Program-made: the position numbers and the translations under genes | Notes under the pieces: model-generated | The model's input: the letters and a program-made list of their open reading frames with translations, nothing else | Told to the model about the DNA's origin: nothing | Databases searched by the model: none | In this document: piece by piece, positions 2,178 through 19,707 of the stretch | Layout: the number at the start of each line of letters is the position of its first letter | Position numbering within the stretch: the first letter of the stretch is position 1 | Assembly (NCBI GenBank): GCA_021739765.1 | Contig: JAIPBD010000014.1 | Location: forward strand, 59,954 to 123,953 | Source: Melioribacteraceae bacterium | GTDB lineage: Bacteria; Bacteroidota; Ignavibacteria; Ignavibacteriales; Melioribacteraceae | Length of the DNA: 64,000 nucleotides | Direction: 5' to 3'

Positions 2178-2870
2178 TTATTTTTTAAGAATTTTACTGC
2201 CGCTTTCGGTAGCTACAATTACTTCAGTTGCCAATTGGTAAAAAATTCCATTTTCTACAATTCCGGCACGTGTGTTTATTTTGCTGTTAACTTCATCGGG
2301 ACTTTTAATAATTCCAAAATCGCAATCCAAAATATAATTGCCCTCGTCAGTAACAAAATTGGCTCCGGAAGAATCTTTCCTTAAAGTGACCATCGCGCCT
2401 AAGGATTCAAGATATTTCTTTTCCAAGTTGGATGCGAATTGTAAAACTTCCACCGGGACTTTGTGTTTTTCCCCCAGTAACTTGGAAATTTTAGATTCAT
2501 CGACGATAATAATATTTTCGGCACTTGCTTGCGCGACAACCTTTTCGCGCAACAACGCTCCGTGTCCGCCTTTTATTAAATTCAAATCGTCATCAACTTC
2601 ATCGGCTCCGTCTATTGTTAAATCCACGTAGGGATTTTTATCAAAATCTGTCAGCAATATTCCCAACTCCTTAGCGAGATTGTAACTTTCATTCGATGTA
2701 GGAATACCCAAAATGTTTTTCAAAGTACCTTTTTGTATCAATTCGGCAATTGCGACTATTGCATGTCGGGCGGTTGTTCCCGTTCCTAAACCCACAACCA
2801 TTCCTGATTTAATCTTTTCAACAGCCTTCAATGCTGCACGTTTCTTTAATTTATCTTGCTGATTTGTCAT
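2178..2870 (-). CDS. rpiA: Ribose-5-phosphate isomerase A
   Basis: A 230-residue RpiA, which interconverts ribose 5-phosphate and ribulose 5-phosphate in the pentose phosphate pathway. Visible family motifs are GLGTGTTA (residues 27-34, phosphate binding), TIDGADEVDDDLNLIKGG and the following GALLREK, containing the active-site Asp and Lys region. The usual KGGGGAL reads KGGHGAL here, a tolerated position. The gene is monocistronic: gldA begins 147 bp further on in the same direction, and the galactokinase-like gene diverges on the other side. Confidence 0.95.
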   Translation of the reverse strand: MTNQQDKLKKRAALKAVEKIKSGMVVGLGTGTTARHAIVAIAELIQKGTLKNILGIPTSNESYNLAKELGILLTDFDKNPYVDLTIDGADEVDDDLNLIKGGHGALLREKVVAQASAENIIIVDESKISKLLGEKHKVPVEVLQFASNLEKKYLESLGAMVTLRKDSSGANFVTDEGNYILDCDFGIIKSPDEVNSKINTRAGIVENGIFYQLATEVIVATESGSKILKK

Positions 2871-3049
2871 TTATTAAATACCGAATTTTATTCAGACAAT
2901 ATTATTAATATAAATCGAAGTAACAAAATCGATTTTTTCTAAAAAGGATATTGTGGACATTGTTCACCTATTTTATTAATTTATACGGGATAAAAAGCTT
3001 AATAGCTCTTATTAATCAGACTGCGTATCATCCTATTGGAATATATTTT

Positions 3050-4222
3050 ATGAACGATCATGCAAATACGGTTAAAGATTTTCAAACCTTGTTTCCGGAT
3101 GCCGGGAAAACCGTTTATTCTATTGCTCCCGCGAGCATTGTTTTGCTCGGCGACCACACTCATTACAATGAAGGAATTCAGCTTACTTTCGCGTGTGATA
3201 GATACGTAAAACTTGGTGTTGGTAAAAGGAATAACAGTTTTATTAAAATCAATTTTAGACAAAATAATTATGAGTTTGGAGTTGAAACTATTGAAACTGT
3301 TGGCTCTACAGGAATTTGGACAATTGATTACGCTGTTGGTCTGATTAAAGCCCTCAAGAATGATTTCGGATTTAATTCCGGTCTATACATTTTTCCTCAG
3401 ATCGATGAACCGGAAAGTATCGGACTGGGAATGCGTGTAGCGTTTTTAGTTTCGCTTTTTAAATCCCTCAACGCTTTATTTAAGTTCAAAGTTTCTGTTA
3501 AAGAATCAATCCAATATTGCAGAGAGATTGAGTATAAGCTGATCGGGAAAATATCAAATCATGCACATTTTTTTACTGTAAACTACTCGCAAGCAAAATT
3601 ACTTCAAATTGATCTGCGATCGATGCAGCATAAATCTATCAATGAATTTTTTGGAGATTATGATATTGCCATTTGCGATACGGCACTTCCAATTATAAAA
3701 CCAGAATTAACGTGTAACGAAAGAATAGAGGAATGTGCAATTGGAGTGCAAGGATTACGCTTATACATCTGGGGAATAAAAAGTTTACGTGATGTGAAAG
3801 AAGATTTCCTTAAGCGCCACATAAATATGTTGCCCAGAAGAATTTTCAATCGATGTATATACAATGTAAATGAAAGAGATAGAGTTCTGGACGCCGCGAG
3901 AGCTATTCGTAAGAAATCGACTAATTCAATTGGCGAGATAATGTTCAAATCACATGAAAGTTTATCAACCGATTACGAAATTTCTTCGCCTGAAGTTGAT
4001 TTTGCAGTTAACTTTGCCATGAAATCAGATTATGTAATTGGTGCCAAGCTTATTAGTTGCTCACCCATTAAAAGTACGATAAACATTCTGCAAAAGGATA
4101 CTTTCGAAAAATTCAGCAAATCCTTCAAGAAGAGTTTTCAAGCTGAATTTAAACAGCCGGTAAATGTCTATAAATTGAATCTCGCAAAAGGCTTTGAGTT
4201 TGTGAACAACACGCAAGTATAG
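3050..4222 (+). CDS. Galactokinase-like GHMP protein with degenerate active site (probable pseudokinase)
   Basis: The reading frame is open from a TTG at 2951. The ATG at 3050 gives a 390-residue protein of normal galactokinase length, with the substrate-binding motif at the usual place, so I prefer it. Similarity to galactokinase runs the whole length: SIAPASIVLLGDHTHYNEG resembles the R-x-N-L-I-G-E-H-T-D-Y motif, then RIEECAIGVQGLR, NVNERDRVLDAARAIR, SHESLSTDYEISSPEVD, and GAKLISCSPIKSTIN in place of GARMTGAGFGG. The ATP-binding glycine/serine loop (normally P-x-G-x-G-L-S-S-S-A) reads PESIGLGMRVA. The region of the catalytic Asp (normally G-x-x-D-Q) reads GKISNHAHFF. These losses suggest a non-catalytic homologue. 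No galT or other Leloir gene is nearby. Confidence 0.75.
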   Translation: MNDHANTVKDFQTLFPDAGKTVYSIAPASIVLLGDHTHYNEGIQLTFACDRYVKLGVGKRNNSFIKINFRQNNYEFGVETIETVGSTGIWTIDYAVGLIKALKNDFGFNSGLYIFPQIDEPESIGLGMRVAFLVSLFKSLNALFKFKVSVKESIQYCREIEYKLIGKISNHAHFFTVNYSQAKLLQIDLRSMQHKSINEFFGDYDIAICDTALPIIKPELTCNERIEECAIGVQGLRLYIWGIKSLRDVKEDFLKRHINMLPRRIFNRCIYNVNERDRVLDAARAIRKKSTNSIGEIMFKSHESLSTDYEISSPEVDFAVNFAMKSDYVIGAKLISCSPIKSTINILQKDTFEKFSKSFKKSFQAEFKQPVNVYKLNLAKGFEFVNNTQV

Positions 4223-7940: not shown

Positions 7941-9995
7941 TTAATTCGTCCTTTTTATGATCATCATGGTTATATCATCTTCAAGATTTTGACCGCCTCT
8001 CCAATTCTCACCCTCATTTACCAATGTGTCAATAATAAATTGCGGGCTTTGGCTGTAATTGGATTCCACAATTTCTCTTATTCTTGCGAGATCGAACATT
8101 TCCTTACTCTCATTAAAGCTTTCCATTAAACCGTCGGACATTATTAGCAATAGATCGCCTTTTTCCATTTCAAATTGTTCTGTATTGTACGGGAAATTCC
8201 TAAACCCGCCGAGCGGCATTCCTTTAATTAAAATTTCCCGAACTTTTTTTTCTTTACTAGAAAATAGAATTAAGGGCGGCATTCCCGCACAAGAAGCGAT
8301 TATGGTTCTATTTTGCAATCTCAAAAAGGCGAGGGACATAAAAAGATTGCCCAGCCCCATATTTTTTATAATTTCTGTGCAGCGATTGAAAAAATCGGGG
8401 ATTAATAAATTTGATCCGAGAGCGGCAAAGAGACTTTTTACATTCGCCACCATTATTCCGGCTTTCATACCATGACCCGTTGCGTCACCAACTACTATAT
8501 TTAATATATTTTGTCTTGATATATTAAAATCATAATAATCCCCTCCAACTTCCGTCGCGGTTTTATTAAATACGGCAATTTCAAAGCCTTCATAGAAAGG
8601 AACAGTTTTGGGGAGCATAGAAAGTTGTAATTCTCTGGCTTCTTCAAGTTCGTTTGTTTTACGCTCATTATCCGCTTGTAAAACTTTCTGCTCAACTTCT
8701 TTCGCTCGGGCCTCTCTTTCTTGTTGAATTGTTTGTTCGGAAAGTTTTTCTACTTCCGTAAGTTTGATTTCCAAATTTTCCGTAGTAAGCGCAAATTCCC
8801 TTGCGAGCGCAATCGACATAAAAATGAGAAACGCTATAACTCCATAAAAGTAAAGCACATCAAAACCAAAAGGCGCGGCAATTAAATCTTGGGCAATCAG
8901 CATTTGAAGAATACCCGAAATCGACATTATCACGAATCCGATTATTACGATTTTTTTTATTCTAAAATCGACATCCGTTGGTCCGAATAATTTCCTTCCG
9001 GTAAACGCTGAAACTATACCGATAAAAATATATGACAAATATGCGGCCAAATCGCTGCCATCGATATAGCCGTAAATTCCGATTAATATTGCAGCGACAA
9101 CAAATAACCAACTCGCCTTAGGCAATTTATCAACGACCGACCATACAGCAAAGGAAGCTAGTGTAATTGTCAGGTTGAGCGACAAATAAGCAAGTTTATA
9201 CCAAAATATGGACTCTTCGAAGGACTTGACAAATAATCCGGTATTTGCGAGATAAACATAAAATGCAAAACAGAGTAGGAATAAAACATAAATTAAATTG
9301 TGCGTATTAGTCCTGTTAAATAAATACAATGAAAAGTGAATAAGCGCCAGCAACAGAGGAACCGTGATCAGGAAAAGTCGTTCATTCGATTGCATCACAA
9401 AAGCGGATGTGAAATTATCTAAAACTGAATCGTATTTCCCAAAATAGAATTTGAATCCTGCCCACCGTTCATTTTCAAAATATTCTTTGTAAAAATGATT
9501 GGAATATCGAATTGCAATTAGATGGGGCCCGATATTATTAAATTTAATCGGGCGCGGAATACGACCGGCATCTCGAACTTCCCCACCACTATTTTTTGAA
9601 AATGTACCGAGTGAATCATAAAGCACACCATCAATATAGATTTGAGATGCTCCGGCTTGAAATATTCTAAACGAGAGCAATTTGTTAACCAGAACGGAAT
9701 CAAGCAAAAATTCTTTTCTGAACCAGGAAACACCTCTAAATTCAGAAAAATTTGTATCGTTTTTTTCGATCAATGAACTTGTCAACGCCCACGAAGAATC
9801 AACATATTCATTATTTGCCCAATTAATGTCATCACCGGATTTGTATCTCCAGTTTATCGGGTAATAAACTAAAGAATGCTGTTCAAGCAAGGATGCTTCA
9901 ATTTTAGAATAATTGTATTCTTGAGCGGATATGTTTATTTGAATTGAAACAAATAAAAGTGCTGCGAAAAAGATGACGACAACTCTCATAGGCAA
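7941..9995 (-). CDS. 7TM receptor-like PP2C (SpoIIE/RsbU-type) serine phosphatase
   Basis: A 684-residue membrane signalling protein. In order: a signal peptide (1-24); an extracytoplasmic beta-sandwich domain (about 30-200) with the phrase FRGVSWFRKEFLLD seen in 7TMR-DISM proteins; seven hydrophobic helices (about 205-400); a short coiled coil (about 400-455); and a C-terminal SpoIIE-type PP2C domain. Metal-binding motifs are intact: TEVGGDYYDF, VGDATGHGMKAG, MSDGLMES and EDDITMMIIKR. Such proteins usually dephosphorylate an anti-anti-sigma factor. No anti-sigma or STAS gene is adjacent, so its partner must be elsewhere. Confidence 0.85.
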   Translation of the reverse strand: MPMRVVVIFFAALLFVSIQINISAQEYNYSKIEASLLEQHSLVYYPINWRYKSGDDINWANNEYVDSSWALTSSLIEKNDTNFSEFRGVSWFRKEFLLDSVLVNKLLSFRIFQAGASQIYIDGVLYDSLGTFSKNSGGEVRDAGRIPRPIKFNNIGPHLIAIRYSNHFYKEYFENERWAGFKFYFGKYDSVLDNFTSAFVMQSNERLFLITVPLLLALIHFSLYLFNRTNTHNLIYVLFLLCFAFYVYLANTGLFVKSFEESIFWYKLAYLSLNLTITLASFAVWSVVDKLPKASWLFVVAAILIGIYGYIDGSDLAAYLSYIFIGIVSAFTGRKLFGPTDVDFRIKKIVIIGFVIMSISGILQMLIAQDLIAAPFGFDVLYFYGVIAFLIFMSIALAREFALTTENLEIKLTEVEKLSEQTIQQEREARAKEVEQKVLQADNERKTNELEEARELQLSMLPKTVPFYEGFEIAVFNKTATEVGGDYYDFNISRQNILNIVVGDATGHGMKAGIMVANVKSLFAALGSNLLIPDFFNRCTEIIKNMGLGNLFMSLAFLRLQNRTIIASCAGMPPLILFSSKEKKVREILIKGMPLGGFRNFPYNTEQFEMEKGDLLLIMSDGLMESFNESKEMFDLARIREIVESNYSQSPQFIIDTLVNEGENWRGGQNLEDDITMMIIKRTN

Positions 9996-16063: not shown

Positions 16064-16896
16064 GTTTATTAGTTTCTCTCGAGCTTCAAAAAATATTTAG
16101 TAAATGGCGAACATATATCGGTTTTATCGCAATAGGCGTTTTGATTCCTATCGTACAGATTGCTTTAGTTTACGAAGGCGATAAACTGATTAACTTCGCT
16201 ACACAGGGATTAAAAAACTCCTTTGTGTTCGTGGGGGATTTGTTCAACGGTTATTTGGTCGCACATTTGGTGCAGCAATCGTTAATAATTCACATCCCGT
16301 TTTTGATCGTTCTTGTTGGCGGAGATATTCTTGCCGGCGAAGCAACTGCCGGAACTTATAGAATGATGATGACACGACCGATTACGAGATTTCAATTTAT
16401 TACTTCGAAATTTTTAGCCGGAACGATTTATACAAATTTGCTTCTGTTGTGGATGATGTTTATGGGACTGGTGGTAAGTATAATTATATTCGGAACGGGC
16501 GAACTTCTAGTTTTGAAAGATAAAATTTACATCTTTGCGGCTGATGATGTTTTGTGGAGATTCATTTTGGCTTTCGGATATTCTGCGTTGAGTATGACAA
16601 CTGTTATGGCACTTTCATTTTTCTTTTCATCTCTAGTGGAAAACGCCATCGGACCGATTGTTGCAAGTATGGCTGTGATAATAATTTTTATAATTATTTC
16701 CGCTCTTCCAATTGAAGCCCTGGATGTAATTAAACCCTATTTGTTTACGAATCATATGAATGCTTGGCGTGAGTTTATGAGTAATCCGGTAGATTTACCG
16801 CAAATTGTAAATTCGGGTCTTATTCTCACCGCGCATATAATAGGACTTTATTTATTGACGTTATTCATTTTTAAAAGGAAAGATATTTTATCGTAG
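16060..16896 (+). CDS. ABC-2 type transporter permease
   Basis: A 278-residue membrane protein with about six helices and the ABC-2 coupling phrase GDILAGEATAGTYRMMMTRPITR (about residues 88-110). It begins inside the last codons of the ATPase gene (ATGA overlap), a sign of translational coupling. Together they form an exporter. The following gene encodes a LolA-like periplasmic protein, which suggests handling of a lipid or lipoprotein-like cargo, but this is inference. Confidence 0.87.
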   Translation: MSLLVSLELQKIFSKWRTYIGFIAIGVLIPIVQIALVYEGDKLINFATQGLKNSFVFVGDLFNGYLVAHLVQQSLIIHIPFLIVLVGGDILAGEATAGTYRMMMTRPITRFQFITSKFLAGTIYTNLLLLWMMFMGLVVSIIIFGTGELLVLKDKIYIFAADDVLWRFILAFGYSALSMTTVMALSFFFSSLVENAIGPIVASMAVIIIFIIISALPIEALDVIKPYLFTNHMNAWREFMSNPVDLPQIVNSGLILTAHIIGLYLLTLFIFKRKDILS

Positions 16897-16903
16897 GTGA
16901 TTT

Positions 16904-17611
16904 ATGAAAAAATTAGTGTTGCTTTTTTTGATTGCGGCTACTATTTCGGCGCAGGAAAAAGATCCGTATGAATTGATCGAAAAGGTTAAATCCAAATTCA
17001 ATCAAATTCAAGATTATGTTGTTGATGTTACTATTTCAATAGATGTGAATTTTTTGAATGTTCCGGAATCGACTGCGAAATTGTATTTCAAAAAACCGGA
17101 TTCAGTTCGATTAAAATCTGACGGATTCGCTCTGTTGCCGAAAGAAGGAATGAATTTCTCACCAATAGGTTTGTTCAAAGGTGAATACAATGCGATCTAC
17201 ACCAAAGAAGAAAAATTGAACGGAAGCATGGTCGATGTAATCAAAGTTATTCCGTTGGATGATTCTTCACAAATTATTCTCTCTACCATTTGGATTGACC
17301 AAACGGAACATGTCATCCGTAAATTGGAATCGACTTCCAAAAAAAGCGGGACGCTTTCAATATCACTCTCTTATCAAGATAAAAATCAAAAAATTTTACC
17401 GTCAGAAGTTACTTTCGAATTTAACGTACAAGATTTCCAACTTCCCGCAACCATTACCGGCGAATACAACAACACCGATCCGAAAGATGCCAAAAAGAGA
17501 AAAAACAAATACAGCGGTGAAAATATTACCGGAAGTGTCACAGTCAAATATCAAAACTATGTTATAAATAAAGGAATCGAAGCTTCGATTTTTGAGGATA
17601 ATGGAAAGTAA
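16904..17611 (+). CDS. LolA-like periplasmic outer-membrane lipoprotein-sorting protein
   Basis: A 235-residue protein with a signal peptide (MKKLVLLFLIAATISAQ, cleavage after about residue 16). A LolA/LolB-like half-barrel follows: repeated phrases such as LIEKVKSKFNQIQDYVVDVTI, AKLYFKKPDSVRLKSDGF and TIWIDQTEHVIRKLE are typical of the DUF4292/LolA-like superfamily. It lies 7 bp after the ABC permease and is the last gene of the operon starting at 10066. Members bind acyl chains in the periplasm; whether this one carries lipoproteins or another lipid is not visible. Confidence 0.7.
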   Translation: MKKLVLLFLIAATISAQEKDPYELIEKVKSKFNQIQDYVVDVTISIDVNFLNVPESTAKLYFKKPDSVRLKSDGFALLPKEGMNFSPIGLFKGEYNAIYTKEEKLNGSMVDVIKVIPLDDSSQIILSTIWIDQTEHVIRKLESTSKKSGTLSISLSYQDKNQKILPSEVTFEFNVQDFQLPATITGEYNNTDPKDAKKRKNKYSGENITGSVTVKYQNYVINKGIEASIFEDNGK

Positions 17612-17633
17612 ATTGCATTTTCCGTTATTCGCT

Positions 17634-17790
17634 AAAGTGAAACTTGAATTGAAAATCCTCGTTCACTGAGCCCGTCGAAGTGAACTTGAATTGAAAAACC
17701 TCGTTCGCTGAGTCCGTCGGAGTGAACTTGAATTCAGAAATCGCGTTCACTGAGCCCTACAAAGTCGGGCAGGCTTGTCGAAGCGAACTT
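17634..17790. repeat. REP-like tandem repeat array, 42-nt period, hairpin-forming
   Basis: After the operon end there are three consecutive units beginning at 17661, 17703 and 17745, preceded by a partial unit. Each starts with GTTCaCTGAGcCcGTCGaAG then TGAAC, so GTTCACT pairs with AGTGAAC around a short loop, followed by a spacer ACTTGAATTGAAAAACCTC. The first two units are 42 nt apart. The third carries an extra segment of about 20 nt (CTACAAAGTCGGGCAGGCTT) inside the hairpin loop, so short and long forms coexist. The same core recurs inverted at 18145 and again direct at 18417. Confidence 0.85.
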
Positions 17791-17831
17791 TGGAATCGAT
17801 TAAACATCAAATAAAAACCCAATAAATACTC

Positions 17832-18116
17832 ATGCCAAAAGGATACATGTACATCTTGGAATGCAGTGATGGCAGCTCCTACACCGGTAGCACCAACAAC
17901 CTTGAACGAAGATACGAAGAACATTGTTTGGGAATAGGAGCCAAATATACAATGGCTCGCCGTCCACTAAAACTAATTTATTACGAAGAATTTGATAGGA
18001 TTGAATTAGCTTTTTACAGAGAAAAACAAATTCAAGGCTGGAGCAGAAAAAAGAAAATTGCTCTAATTGAAGGGAAATTTGACGATTTACCGGGACTTTC
18101 GAAAAGTAATAAATAA
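17832..18116 (+). CDS. GIY-YIG nuclease superfamily protein (small, UPF0213/YhbQ-like)
   Basis: A 94-residue stand-alone GIY-YIG domain. Visible: YMYILEC for the GIY strand (residues 5-11), SYTGSTNNLERRYEEH for the YIG strand and the following helix with Arg 26/27 and His31, then YTMARRPLKLIYYEE and AFYREKQIQGWSRKKKIALIEG. This matches the small UPF0213-type nuclease-like proteins, whose substrates are mostly unknown. It is bracketed by identical REP-like sequence (38-nt core at 17749-17786 and 18417-18454), with nothing else in the interval, so it looks like the cargo or motor of a small repetitive element. Confidence 0.88.
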   Translation: MPKGYMYILECSDGSSYTGSTNNLERRYEEHCLGIGAKYTMARRPLKLIYYEEFDRIELAFYREKQIQGWSRKKKIALIEGKFDDLPGLSKSNK

Positions 18117-18468
18117 ATGAGGGGTGGCTGATCGTTCCCCGTTGCTTCGACAAGCTCAGCAACCGATGTTAGTTGATCGCAACCTTATTGGATACTCAAG
18201 CACAGCAACCGATATTAATTATTTCTATTCTTTTTGCTCTCATGCTCAGAAACCGACTATATGTTTTTTCTAACAATTTGAATCCCCCGAGCCGTAATTG
18301 ATTTCGATCCGAATATTTTTAAGATCTTGAAATTTAACTAAACGAATTTAAAAAGAATAGAGAAGAGCTTTGTACTATGCTTGTTTTAACTCAACTTGAA
18401 TTGAAAAACCTCGTTTACTGAGCCCTACAAAGTCGGGCAGGCTTGTCGAAGCGATCAAGGTTTCGATA
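18117..18468. repeat. REP-like repeat remnants downstream of GIY-YIG gene
   Basis: There is no gene in this 350-bp stretch. CTTCGACAAGCTCAG at 18145-18159 is the reverse complement of the REP-like core. It is followed by three decaying copies of a phrase like GCTCAGCAACCGATRTTA at about 18153, 18199 and 18244. At 18393-18415 a 23-nt spacer identical to 17683-17705 recurs. At 18417-18454 the 38-nt long-form core recurs, identical to 17749-17786. The right copy ends 14 bp before the stop codon of the propeller lipoprotein. The middle (about 18260-18390) shows nothing recognisable. Confidence 0.8.
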
Positions 18469-19707
18469 TCAGTACGATTCACCTTTATAGCAGAAAAGGT
18501 AGTTGTGAACCACAAACCATATATTGTTCTTGGAATCAACAGCAATTTGTCCTCTGTAAGCCGATCCGGAAGGATTGAAGTTAGTAATAGATATTTTTTC
18601 CCAAGTGTCCCCATTAAATTTATGTAATCCGTTTTTGTGAGGAACCCATATATTTCCCTTCTTACCTAATGCGATACCAAACCCATATCTTTCATCATCG
18701 ACTTTGTAAATTATCGTATCATTTGGTGAATACATATAAATCGCATCACCGTAATTATTTAAAAATTTTCGTTCGCTACTGTAAAAGGCAACATCTGAAA
18801 AATCCCGGTGGGCTAAATGAACGAAACCGGTTCCATTATAAATCATACCGCCCGAATGGTCGCCAAAAATCCACAATAATCCGTTTTCATCAAATATAAT
18901 GTGTTGAGGATGAATGTTTCTAAAATTACCTGATTGTGCTTCAACTGTTCTCCAATGTGAATTATCTCGATAAACAAGCCTACCATTGTGCGTAATAGCC
19001 CAAAGAGTGTTGTTTTGGTCAAAATTTATTGCGTGAACGTCTCCTCCCAATGAGTCATGCATCGCTATAAATTCTATTGACTCATCCTTTAATGTAGAAA
19101 TTCCCGGGTTCAAGCCATAGCCTATATATAATTTTTGTTCCAATTCATTATAAAATAGGCTCTGAAGAATATTTGAATACAGCCCATCTTCTTCCCGATA
19201 GTTTTTCCATTTGAATCGATCAAAGTAGTATAAACCATCTTCGCTTGAAACTAAATAAATTCGATCTTTAATATCAAGAGTCATATTATAGATATCGCCA
19301 TTAAACTTTATTATATCCCAATCTTTATCAGTATAAACCAAAGGGACACCAATTGAATCCGATATGAATATTATTACGCTATCTCTAAAAATTGTTTCAA
19401 GACATTTCATACTAGCGATTATCTTATGCTTACCGGGTGTCAAAACTTTTTGCCTATTAATAATTCCATCCTCATCAGAAAACCACGTCAGATTACATTT
19501 TACTTGAGAAGTATCTATATCGTTATCCAACAATGCAGAATATTCTATCTTAGAATTGCGTGCAAAAACAGAAAAATTTTCTGGAGATACGATTTTCAAA
19601 TTATTCGGAAGTGTTTCAGGCTCAACGTAGTTATTTTCACACGACATTAAAAAAAGGATCAAGATTGTGAATAGAGGAACAAATTTTCTAAACGTAGAAG
19701 ATATCAT
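18469..19707 (-). CDS. Lipoprotein with beta-propeller (two-component-regulator-propeller-like) repeats
   Basis: A 412-residue protein with a lipoprotein signal peptide (lipobox LMSC, Cys23), then a roughly 90-residue Ig-like region (LKIVSPENFSVFARN onward), then a propeller with repeats such as FDRFKWKNYREEDGLYSNI, NSHWRTVEAQSGNFR and FNGDTWEKISITNFNPS. These resemble the Reg_prop blades of hybrid two-component sensors, but no kinase domain follows. It is probably a surface or periplasmic lipoprotein of unknown function. Its 3' end adjoins the REP-like repeat. The lipoprotein at 62396 has a similar plan. Confidence 0.75.
   Translation of the reverse strand: MISSTFRKFVPLFTILILFLMSCENNYVEPETLPNNLKIVSPENFSVFARNSKIEYSALLDNDIDTSQVKCNLTWFSDEDGIINRQKVLTPGKHKIIASMKCLETIFRDSVIIFISDSIGVPLVYTDKDWDIIKFNGDIYNMTLDIKDRIYLVSSEDGLYYFDRFKWKNYREEDGLYSNILQSLFYNELEQKLYIGYGLNPGISTLKDESIEFIAMHDSLGGDVHAINFDQNNTLWAITHNGRLVYRDNSHWRTVEAQSGNFRNIHPQHIIFDENGLLWIFGDHSGGMIYNGTGFVHLAHRDFSDVAFYSSERKFLNNYGDAIYMYSPNDTIIYKVDDERYGFGIALGKKGNIWVPHKNGLHKFNGDTWEKISITNFNPSGSAYRGQIAVDSKNNIWFVVHNYLFCYKGESY

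Follow-up and report, generated by a model that had tools for sequence, protein, structure and literature searches.

The window, by which we mean the whole 64-kb stretch of DNA analyzed, carries a GIY-YIG single-domain nuclease gene at 17832..18116 on the forward strand, identified from its open reading frame and a Pfam match. Its 94-residue product had been read as a GIY-YIG protein from the sequence alone, and the Pfam scan agrees, with PF01541 as the sole family found (residues 3-75, E 2e-19). Residues Y7, Y17, G19, R27, H31, and E64, which we take to be the GIY-YIG catalytic positions, are unchanged in 35 of 35 aligned relatives, with all three protein clades described below represented. 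The solved structures matched by the protein, 1zg2 and 1ywl, are both UPF0213 proteins. YhbQ presumably belongs with the same UPF0213/YazA proteins, to which the window protein is alike in being a single-domain GIY-YIG protein of clearly similar sequence. Two other assignments were rejected: a group I intron endonuclease (TIGR01453), with 17.3 bits against the NCBIfam cutoff of 56.05, and a known antiphage defense system, with no PADLOC-DB family up to E 1.

A 42-bp unit occurs three times in forward orientation before the gene (17641..17786, with starts at 17641, 17683, and 17725, the last copy with an insert) and a fourth time beyond it (18393..18454, forward), where it is 92% like 17725-17786. 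The gene therefore sits between the third and fourth copies. This arrangement contains a 62-nt repeat (17725-17786 and 18393-18454, copies 92% alike), which encloses a 38-nt direct repeat that is identical at 17749-17786 and 18417-18454. The 23-nt repeat at 17683-17705 and 18393-18415 is likewise identical, and an inverted CTGAGCTTGTCGAAG is located at 18145-18159. These two identical repeats and the inverted core were the features first noticed at this locus, and each is present in the sequence at the position originally given.

The core of the 42-bp unit is an imperfect hairpin consisting of an outer stem, a tandem G·A mismatch (GAG...CGA), a closing G-C pair, and a short loop. The sequence, together with the hairpin search, places hairpin 1 at 17662..17684 on the forward strand (TTCACT-GAG-CCCGT-CGA-AGTGAA, with 6/6 outer pairs around the tandem G·A mismatch core). 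Hairpin 2 (17704..17726, forward) is a decayed copy, identified from the sequence and the motif scan, with CTGAGTCCGTCGGAG at 17708-17722. In hairpin 3 (17746..17787, forward), recognized from the sequence, the repeats, and the hairpin search, a second palindrome, CCCTACAAAGTCGGG (17755-17769), is inserted in the loop; the DNA fold of this hairpin including the insert was not better than that of shuffled sequences. Hairpin 4 lies just 3' of the gene in the opposite orientation (18141..18163, reverse strand; GTTGCT-GAG-CTTGT-CGA-AGCAAC, 6/6 outer pairs). Hairpin 5 (18413..18454, forward) is a copy of hairpin 3 in which the inserted palindrome is also found (18423-18437); it falls below the threshold of the hairpin search because its outer arm is decayed. 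With up to two mismatches, CTGAGCYYGTCGAAG was found three times in the window against 0.14 expected, and none of 100 shuffles reached three. The whole window holds six hairpins by our definition, a number within chance (mean 3.75 and highest 9 in 20 shuffles); three of the six lie in the gene interval, including both with a perfect 6-bp outer stem. A known RNA element at the interval was rejected, as the Rfam search of 16800-19300 gave no match at the gathering score.

The genome from which the window comes contains 18 exact copies of CTGAGCNNGTCGAAG and none of the reversed control pattern. Two of these copies flank the window gene, eight lie in a MITE-like repeat, four in open frames of at least 150 aa, and four elsewhere. 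The gene stands among its repeats, yet the repeats are not confined to the gene. The MITE-like family is about 115 bp long, has ends like gcgtgttgcataact...agttctgcaacgcgc with two inverted motif copies or near copies, and was seen at L020, L021, L023, L025, L033, L035, L037, and L038. At five places (L006, L026, L027, L029, and L022, the last with one mismatch), the motif lies inside open frames of 373-675 codons, and at L022 it appears as a run of related tandem units. The same genome has 11 PF01541 matches, of which only that of the window has the motif (up to two mismatches) nearby, in surroundings of up to about 1.5 kb per side. Judging the association from this genome alone was dropped, since one case in 11 is too few.

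These copies invite the explanation that the palindromes are spread by some other enzyme, that the GIY-YIG genes are small accessory genes, and that both passively collect at tolerant places. The eight of 18 motif copies that sit in a MITE-like family, which has ends of its own, and the four inside open frames fit such hitchhiking, which we nevertheless disfavor as very improbable in view of what is found at homologous loci. When the window protein was used to scan the genome collection, 228 matches resulted; the 80 loci considered are the best 80 of these and hence close relatives of the window protein. Going by record titles, they come from Bacteroidota, Neomarinimicrobiota, Cyanobacteria, Spirochaetes, Chloroflexi, and others. 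Across these best 80 of 228 loci, the density of CTGAGNNNNTCGAAG is 2.43/kb up to 250 bp from the genes, compared with 0.035/kb at 2-6 kb, and its reversed control pattern is absent. The words enriched near the genes reveal palindromes that vary in stem and loop and keep GAG...CGA inside the stem. The hairpin definition was chosen after viewing the sequences, control cores were passed through the same search, and overlapping hairpins were counted singly. With this definition, 261 GAG..CGA hairpins lie within 250 bp of a gene, in 79 of the best 80 of 228 loci, giving 6.59/kb against 0.085/kb at 2-6 kb, a 78-fold difference. The clustering of repeat copies beside homologous GIY-YIG genes, predicted from the window sequence, is thus seen far beyond the window. 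In intergenic DNA only, the densities at the same best 80 of 228 loci are 7.85/kb and 0.36/kb, and this 22-fold enrichment argues against hitchhiking to tolerant places. Nine control cores, including a perfect palindrome, gave only 3-7 hairpins each within 250 bp (0.08-0.18/kb) and were present within 500 bp at 4-7 of these 80 best of 228 loci.

The orientation of the hairpins on the two sides of the gene is not strictly inverted. The window gene has a plus hairpin nearest upstream and a minus hairpin nearest downstream. Over the best 80 of 228 loci, the nearest downstream hairpin is minus in 55, plus in 14, and absent within 500 bp in 11; the nearest upstream hairpin is plus in 39, minus in 25, and absent within 500 bp in 16; and the plus/minus pair occurs in 25 of the 80. 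Inverted flanking appears to be a tendency rather than a rule. Among plasmid-borne relatives, hairpins within 500 bp accompany three of six genes (Methylobacterium, Sphingomonas parapaucimobilis, and Planktothrix), and no such hairpin was found within this distance of the other three (Sphingomonas paeninsulae, Sinorhizobium, and B. subtilis yazA). The yazA gene, from a B. subtilis plasmid record, also differs from the window gene in lying in a housekeeping cluster. On Sinorhizobium pSymB (L294), the GIY-YIG gene has copies of ctcatccctgtgctcgtcacaggga, by eye a different palindrome, on both sides. Phage or plasmid cargo was rejected as an origin, as the relatives in 44 plasmid and 23 phage records are all below 60% identity.

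The relation between the gene and the abundance of its palindrome was examined by scanning 296 genomes of the phylum for CTGAGN{4,5}TCGAAG. Thirty genomes have at least 30 copies, a cutoff set after viewing, with the tally made by eye. A homologue at E 1e-18 or better is found in 15 of these 30 motif-rich genomes and in 34 of the 266 others (Fisher p 6e-6); the remaining 15 of the 30 have no homologue at that E value. Palindrome abundance consequently tracks the presence of the gene, though not tightly, and the effect is moderate, with a post hoc cutoff.

The gene and its hairpins are patchily present at orthologous sites. For the window's own site, we followed family orthologues of the upstream gene in 29 of 36 matched relatives; it is preceded by the same permease gene in every one. 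The GIY-YIG gene is found in none of the 29 orthologues in the stretches examined, and no hairpin occurs within 1 kb after the upstream gene (the stretch reaches 325 bp in L302 and about 700 bp in L310); L304 has one hairpin at +1062. In the nearest relative, L295, the permease, LolA-like, and aldehyde dehydrogenase genes are in the order of the window, with 194 bp between the last two, compared with 2.2 kb in the window, where a 412-aa gene is included. The difference from L295 thus takes in this neighbor gene besides the GIY-YIG unit. No aldehyde dehydrogenase gene was seen in the stretches examined of the other 28 orthologues. The differences at this site lie between species and genera, not strains, and no recent exact insertion is visible at that depth.

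A second site, the junction of the HMG-CoA reductase and GHMP kinase genes, gives a similar picture at the level of species and genera. Seven GIY-YIG carriers (L136-L153) were spotted by eye among the best 80 of 228 loci, and carriers among 30 loci were checked by HMM, with three loci giving no reductase end and four no kinase start (these four include L209, the one carrier of the 30). The carriers are Flavobacteriaceae, judged by record titles, and L209. Hairpins occur in 8 of 8 carriers, and the gap, measured in seven, is 386-551 bp. The gap was also measured in 23 noncarriers: it is 14-184 bp in 22 and 512 bp in one, and just one of the 23 (L226) has a hairpin. We looked for a lack of gene association and for a lack of presence/absence variation in this way and found neither. 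The interval's variable presence among relatives, anticipated by the sequence-only reading, is accordingly observed, and its proposal of a nuclease-driven REP element is partly supported: the clustering of repeats with the gene and the patchy presence speak for it, whereas the copies in the window's own genome are not generally tied to the gene, 16 of 18 being elsewhere. Its central idea largely holds, with cutting by the nuclease and movement of the element as its putative parts; the tandem G·A hairpin core and two sister clades with other targets are additions.

PF01541 is found in all 59 genomes of the window's order, with up to 20 matches per genome, UvrC-like proteins counted. The own-order places, taken from the matches listed, comprise 29 new loci, 20 regions, and 40 further places, with about 35 more listed places left out; in the loci examined, 119 small-type GIY-YIG ORFs were found. 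The protein tree was built from 125 of 178 rows and used every third of the 80 loci (best 80 of 228). Before the 178 rows were assembled, ORFs below 60 aa were dropped, as were tandem copies that agreed over their first 60 residues; rows with no recognised target (U), some of them at contig ends, were kept in the tree.

The tree splits by flanking target. The GAG..CGA hairpin clade, which includes the window gene, has 43 H rows and 3 unassigned rows (support 88). A clade with dRS3-like or related palindromes has 12 D, 2 C, and 2 H rows and 5 unassigned (support 97), and a tRNA clade has 48 T rows and 10 unassigned (support 98). The flanking-target labels require 20 changes on the 125-row tree, compared with a shuffled mean of 61.3, and 0 of 200 shuffles were as low. 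PMC3898611 gives the dRS3 pattern as ATTCCC(N8)GGGAAT. Repeat crossing was counted in hand-picked lists from the tree (17 D/C loci, 18 H loci, and 27 of 40 T loci). Within 400 bp of the gene, ATTCC..GGAAT occurs 27 times in D/C (8 of 17 loci) and not at all in the 18 H or 27 T loci, and CTGAG..CGAAG occurs 31 times in H (14 of 18 loci), 4 times in D/C, and not at all in T. Crossing of repeat types between clades is rare, and enzyme and palindrome vary together between the three clades. That target type follows protein clade with so little crossing is again at odds with passive hitchhiking. At L076, two GIY-YIG genes that match in length and score (2524-2811 and 8975-9262) lie 6.45 kb apart, the first of them labeled D.

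In the tRNA clade, the gene adjoins a tRNA gene on its own strand. The ORF-tRNA pairs within 130 bp in the window's order are all on one strand (44/44, in 39 of 40 loci); outside the order, a tRNA gene lies within 150 bp in 27 of 33 loci, with 30/30 pairs sharing a strand. In 70 of 73 loci, another tRNA copy, whole or partial, is found within 700 bp of the tRNA. When near-full copies are excluded, a tRNA piece lies near 41 of 46 own-order tRNAs within 150 bp of the gene, compared with 8 of 25 control tRNAs, namely 18 farther ones in the same loci (6 with a piece) and 7 elsewhere (2 with a piece). Since 8 of 25 controls have one, a short tRNA match alone is not rare. Among 3'-terminal pieces (up to 60 nt), the commonest length is 17-18 nt (13/43), which by our reckoning corresponds to a break inside the T loop, and the next peak is at 31 nt (6); 5' pieces end most often at 21-22 (8/31). 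Two near-exact arrays stand out: five 315-bp units after an intact tRNA-Asp gene (L069, 2985-4627, 99% matches) and 5.3 units of 450 bp after an intact tRNA-Leu gene (L068, 3015-5459, 98%). The units of both contain the GIY-YIG gene and the 3' part of the tRNA, with the T arm broken by a palindrome.

The tRNA isotype requires 13 changes over 41 T rows of the tree (least possible 10, shuffled 28.6). The flanking gene family is shared in 28 of 28 pairs for tRNA-Cys, 6 of 10 for Pro, and 1 of 1 for Gly; for other isotypes the numbers are Asn 1/15, Arg 0/6, Ser 3/21, Lys 1/3, and Asp 0/1. The isotype specificity of this clade is therefore partly shared ancestry of place. At L101, a tRNA-clade GIY-YIG gene (2813-3055) lies 15 bp after a tmRNA gene, and a copy of the tmRNA 3' end is present, broken 18 nt from its end. 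Unrelated small palindromes (e.g., cctgcctgccgtcaggcagg) occupy loop positions of tRNA-derived or REP hairpins in L068, L069, and the window (17755-17769). Such palindromes may quite generally insert into hairpin loops, and the loop-position gaps of L073, L079, and L107 may be further cases.

Tandem arrays and direct repeats flanking the gene are also what a homing-type endonuclease could leave, if it made double-strand breaks at or near its cognate site and recombination copied and tandemly amplified the gene. Phage homing enzymes have a separate DNA-binding domain; proteins of about 80-95 aa are too small to hold one, and the sites here are short hairpins, not long unique sequences. A precedent is SegB of T-even phages, a GIY-YIG endonuclease next to tRNA genes that drives tandem amplification of the tRNA-Tyr/segB segment (PMC13096335). 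The likeness lies in the GIY-YIG nuclease beside tRNA genes and in the tandem amplification; the differences are that the genes described here are on a bacterial chromosome, with tRNA fragments or hairpins as flanks, and encode a protein smaller than SegB. On balance, we regard a homing mechanism of the SegB type as somewhat unlikely.

In arrangement, the nearest known system is RAYT/REP. As described in PMC2817692, it likewise combines a small enzyme gene with short imperfect flanking palindromes, co-variation of enzyme and palindrome, and palindrome abundance that follows the gene. The enzyme there is an HUH/Y1 transposase of the IS200/IS605 kind, and here it is a GIY-YIG protein, with inverted flanking apparently only a tendency. 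Because the enzyme is different, PF01541 being its only Pfam match, the window is not a RAYT/REP member. Among the literature matches listed, titles and abstract beginnings do not link GIY-YIG genes with REP-like palindromes or bacterial tRNA-fragment arrays.

The closest kind known to us is the GIY-YIG Ssn nucleases. In a 2025 Nat Commun study of Neisseria meningitidis, Ssn reportedly cuts ssDNA at a site repeated around its gene; this recognition site is said to occur through the genome as well, and Ssn to have thousands of homologues, many with their own sites. The window protein shares with Ssn, as reported, the single-domain GIY-YIG architecture with conserved core residues and a repeat found both close to the gene and scattered through the genome, here a putative cognate site. 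The system described here may differ from Ssn in its G·A-mismatch hairpin site, in its presence/absence at orthologous sites, and in having a sister clade that is bound to tRNA genes and forms tandem arrays. Because of Ssn, we do not call the finding categorically new. It is conceivable that the protein serves its host as an Ssn-like ssDNA nuclease that shapes natural transformation or recombination, the repeats being regulatory or a by-product and the gene not a mobile unit. The enzyme fold and the arrangement of gene and repeats match Ssn as reported, and the dRS3-like repeats at 8 of the 17 D/C loci point the same way. However, the patchy presence at orthologous sites, the near-exact tandem arrays of the tRNA clade, and the multiplicity of PF01541 matches (up to 20 in one genome, UvrC-like proteins included) look like a self-copying element, and we consider a purely host-serving role unlikely.

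We propose that the interval is probably a small mobile or recently mobile unit, composed of a single-domain GIY-YIG gene and the hairpin sites that its protein recognizes. The probabilities attached to this proposal and to its rivals overlap, and the readings are not mutually exclusive. The proposal starts from what is observed, namely the association, the G·A-mismatch hairpin specificity, the co-variation of target and clade, the conserved GIY-YIG core residues, and the patchy presence; binding, cutting, the single-strandedness of the substrate, and movement of the unit are what we infer. Hairpins, palindromes, and tRNA genes can all fold as single strands, and the substrate is thus probably single-stranded or extruded DNA. 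Each protein would recognize the folded DNA beside its own gene, binding its cognate hairpin when this is single-stranded or extruded, as at forks, in repair, or in taken-up DNA. The bound hairpin would then be nicked or broken by the protein. In the repair of the broken hairpin, either the gene with its flanking hairpins or a different hairpin would act as template or partner. Hairpins, and occasionally the gene, would in this way be copied to further places that bear a hairpin. Unequal exchange between the flanking direct repeats could yield tandem copies. The overall working would resemble that of RAYT/REP with another enzyme.

In many other bacteria, close relatives of the gene lie beside the same kind of hairpin and more distant ones beside tRNA genes. 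This pattern points to a widespread family of tiny mobile units, each made of a nuclease and the DNA structure paired with it. A broader and more tentative reading, to which we give somewhat less than an even chance, is that single-domain GIY-YIG proteins drive a large and for the most part unrecognised class of micro-elements targeting folded DNA, with hairpin, dRS3-like, and tRNA branches. In such a class, the REP-like palindrome families of Bacteroidota, Cyanobacteria, and Alphaproteobacteria may go back to the G·A-hairpin branch. As part of the same tentative reading, the tRNA branch would use mostly one isotype per protein subclade and leave an intact tRNA plus a broken copy at each step; in the arrays analyzed, a unit spans about 315-450 bp.

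REP-like palindromes are among the commonest bacterial repeats, and RAYTs account for some of their families; for many others, we know of no enzyme behind them. Given the tight, clade-specific bond between GIY-YIG genes and palindromes in several phyla, the origin of REP-like repeats can be tested directly, using small proteins together with synthetic hairpins. Nucleases that act site-specifically on single-stranded or hairpin DNA would also serve as useful tools. The tRNA branch, in which an intact tRNA is left in place, would add a second, independent example of tiny elements that live on tRNA genes, and if single-domain GIY-YIG proteins do drive a class of micro-elements, the units of this branch would be among the smallest self-spreading DNA known.
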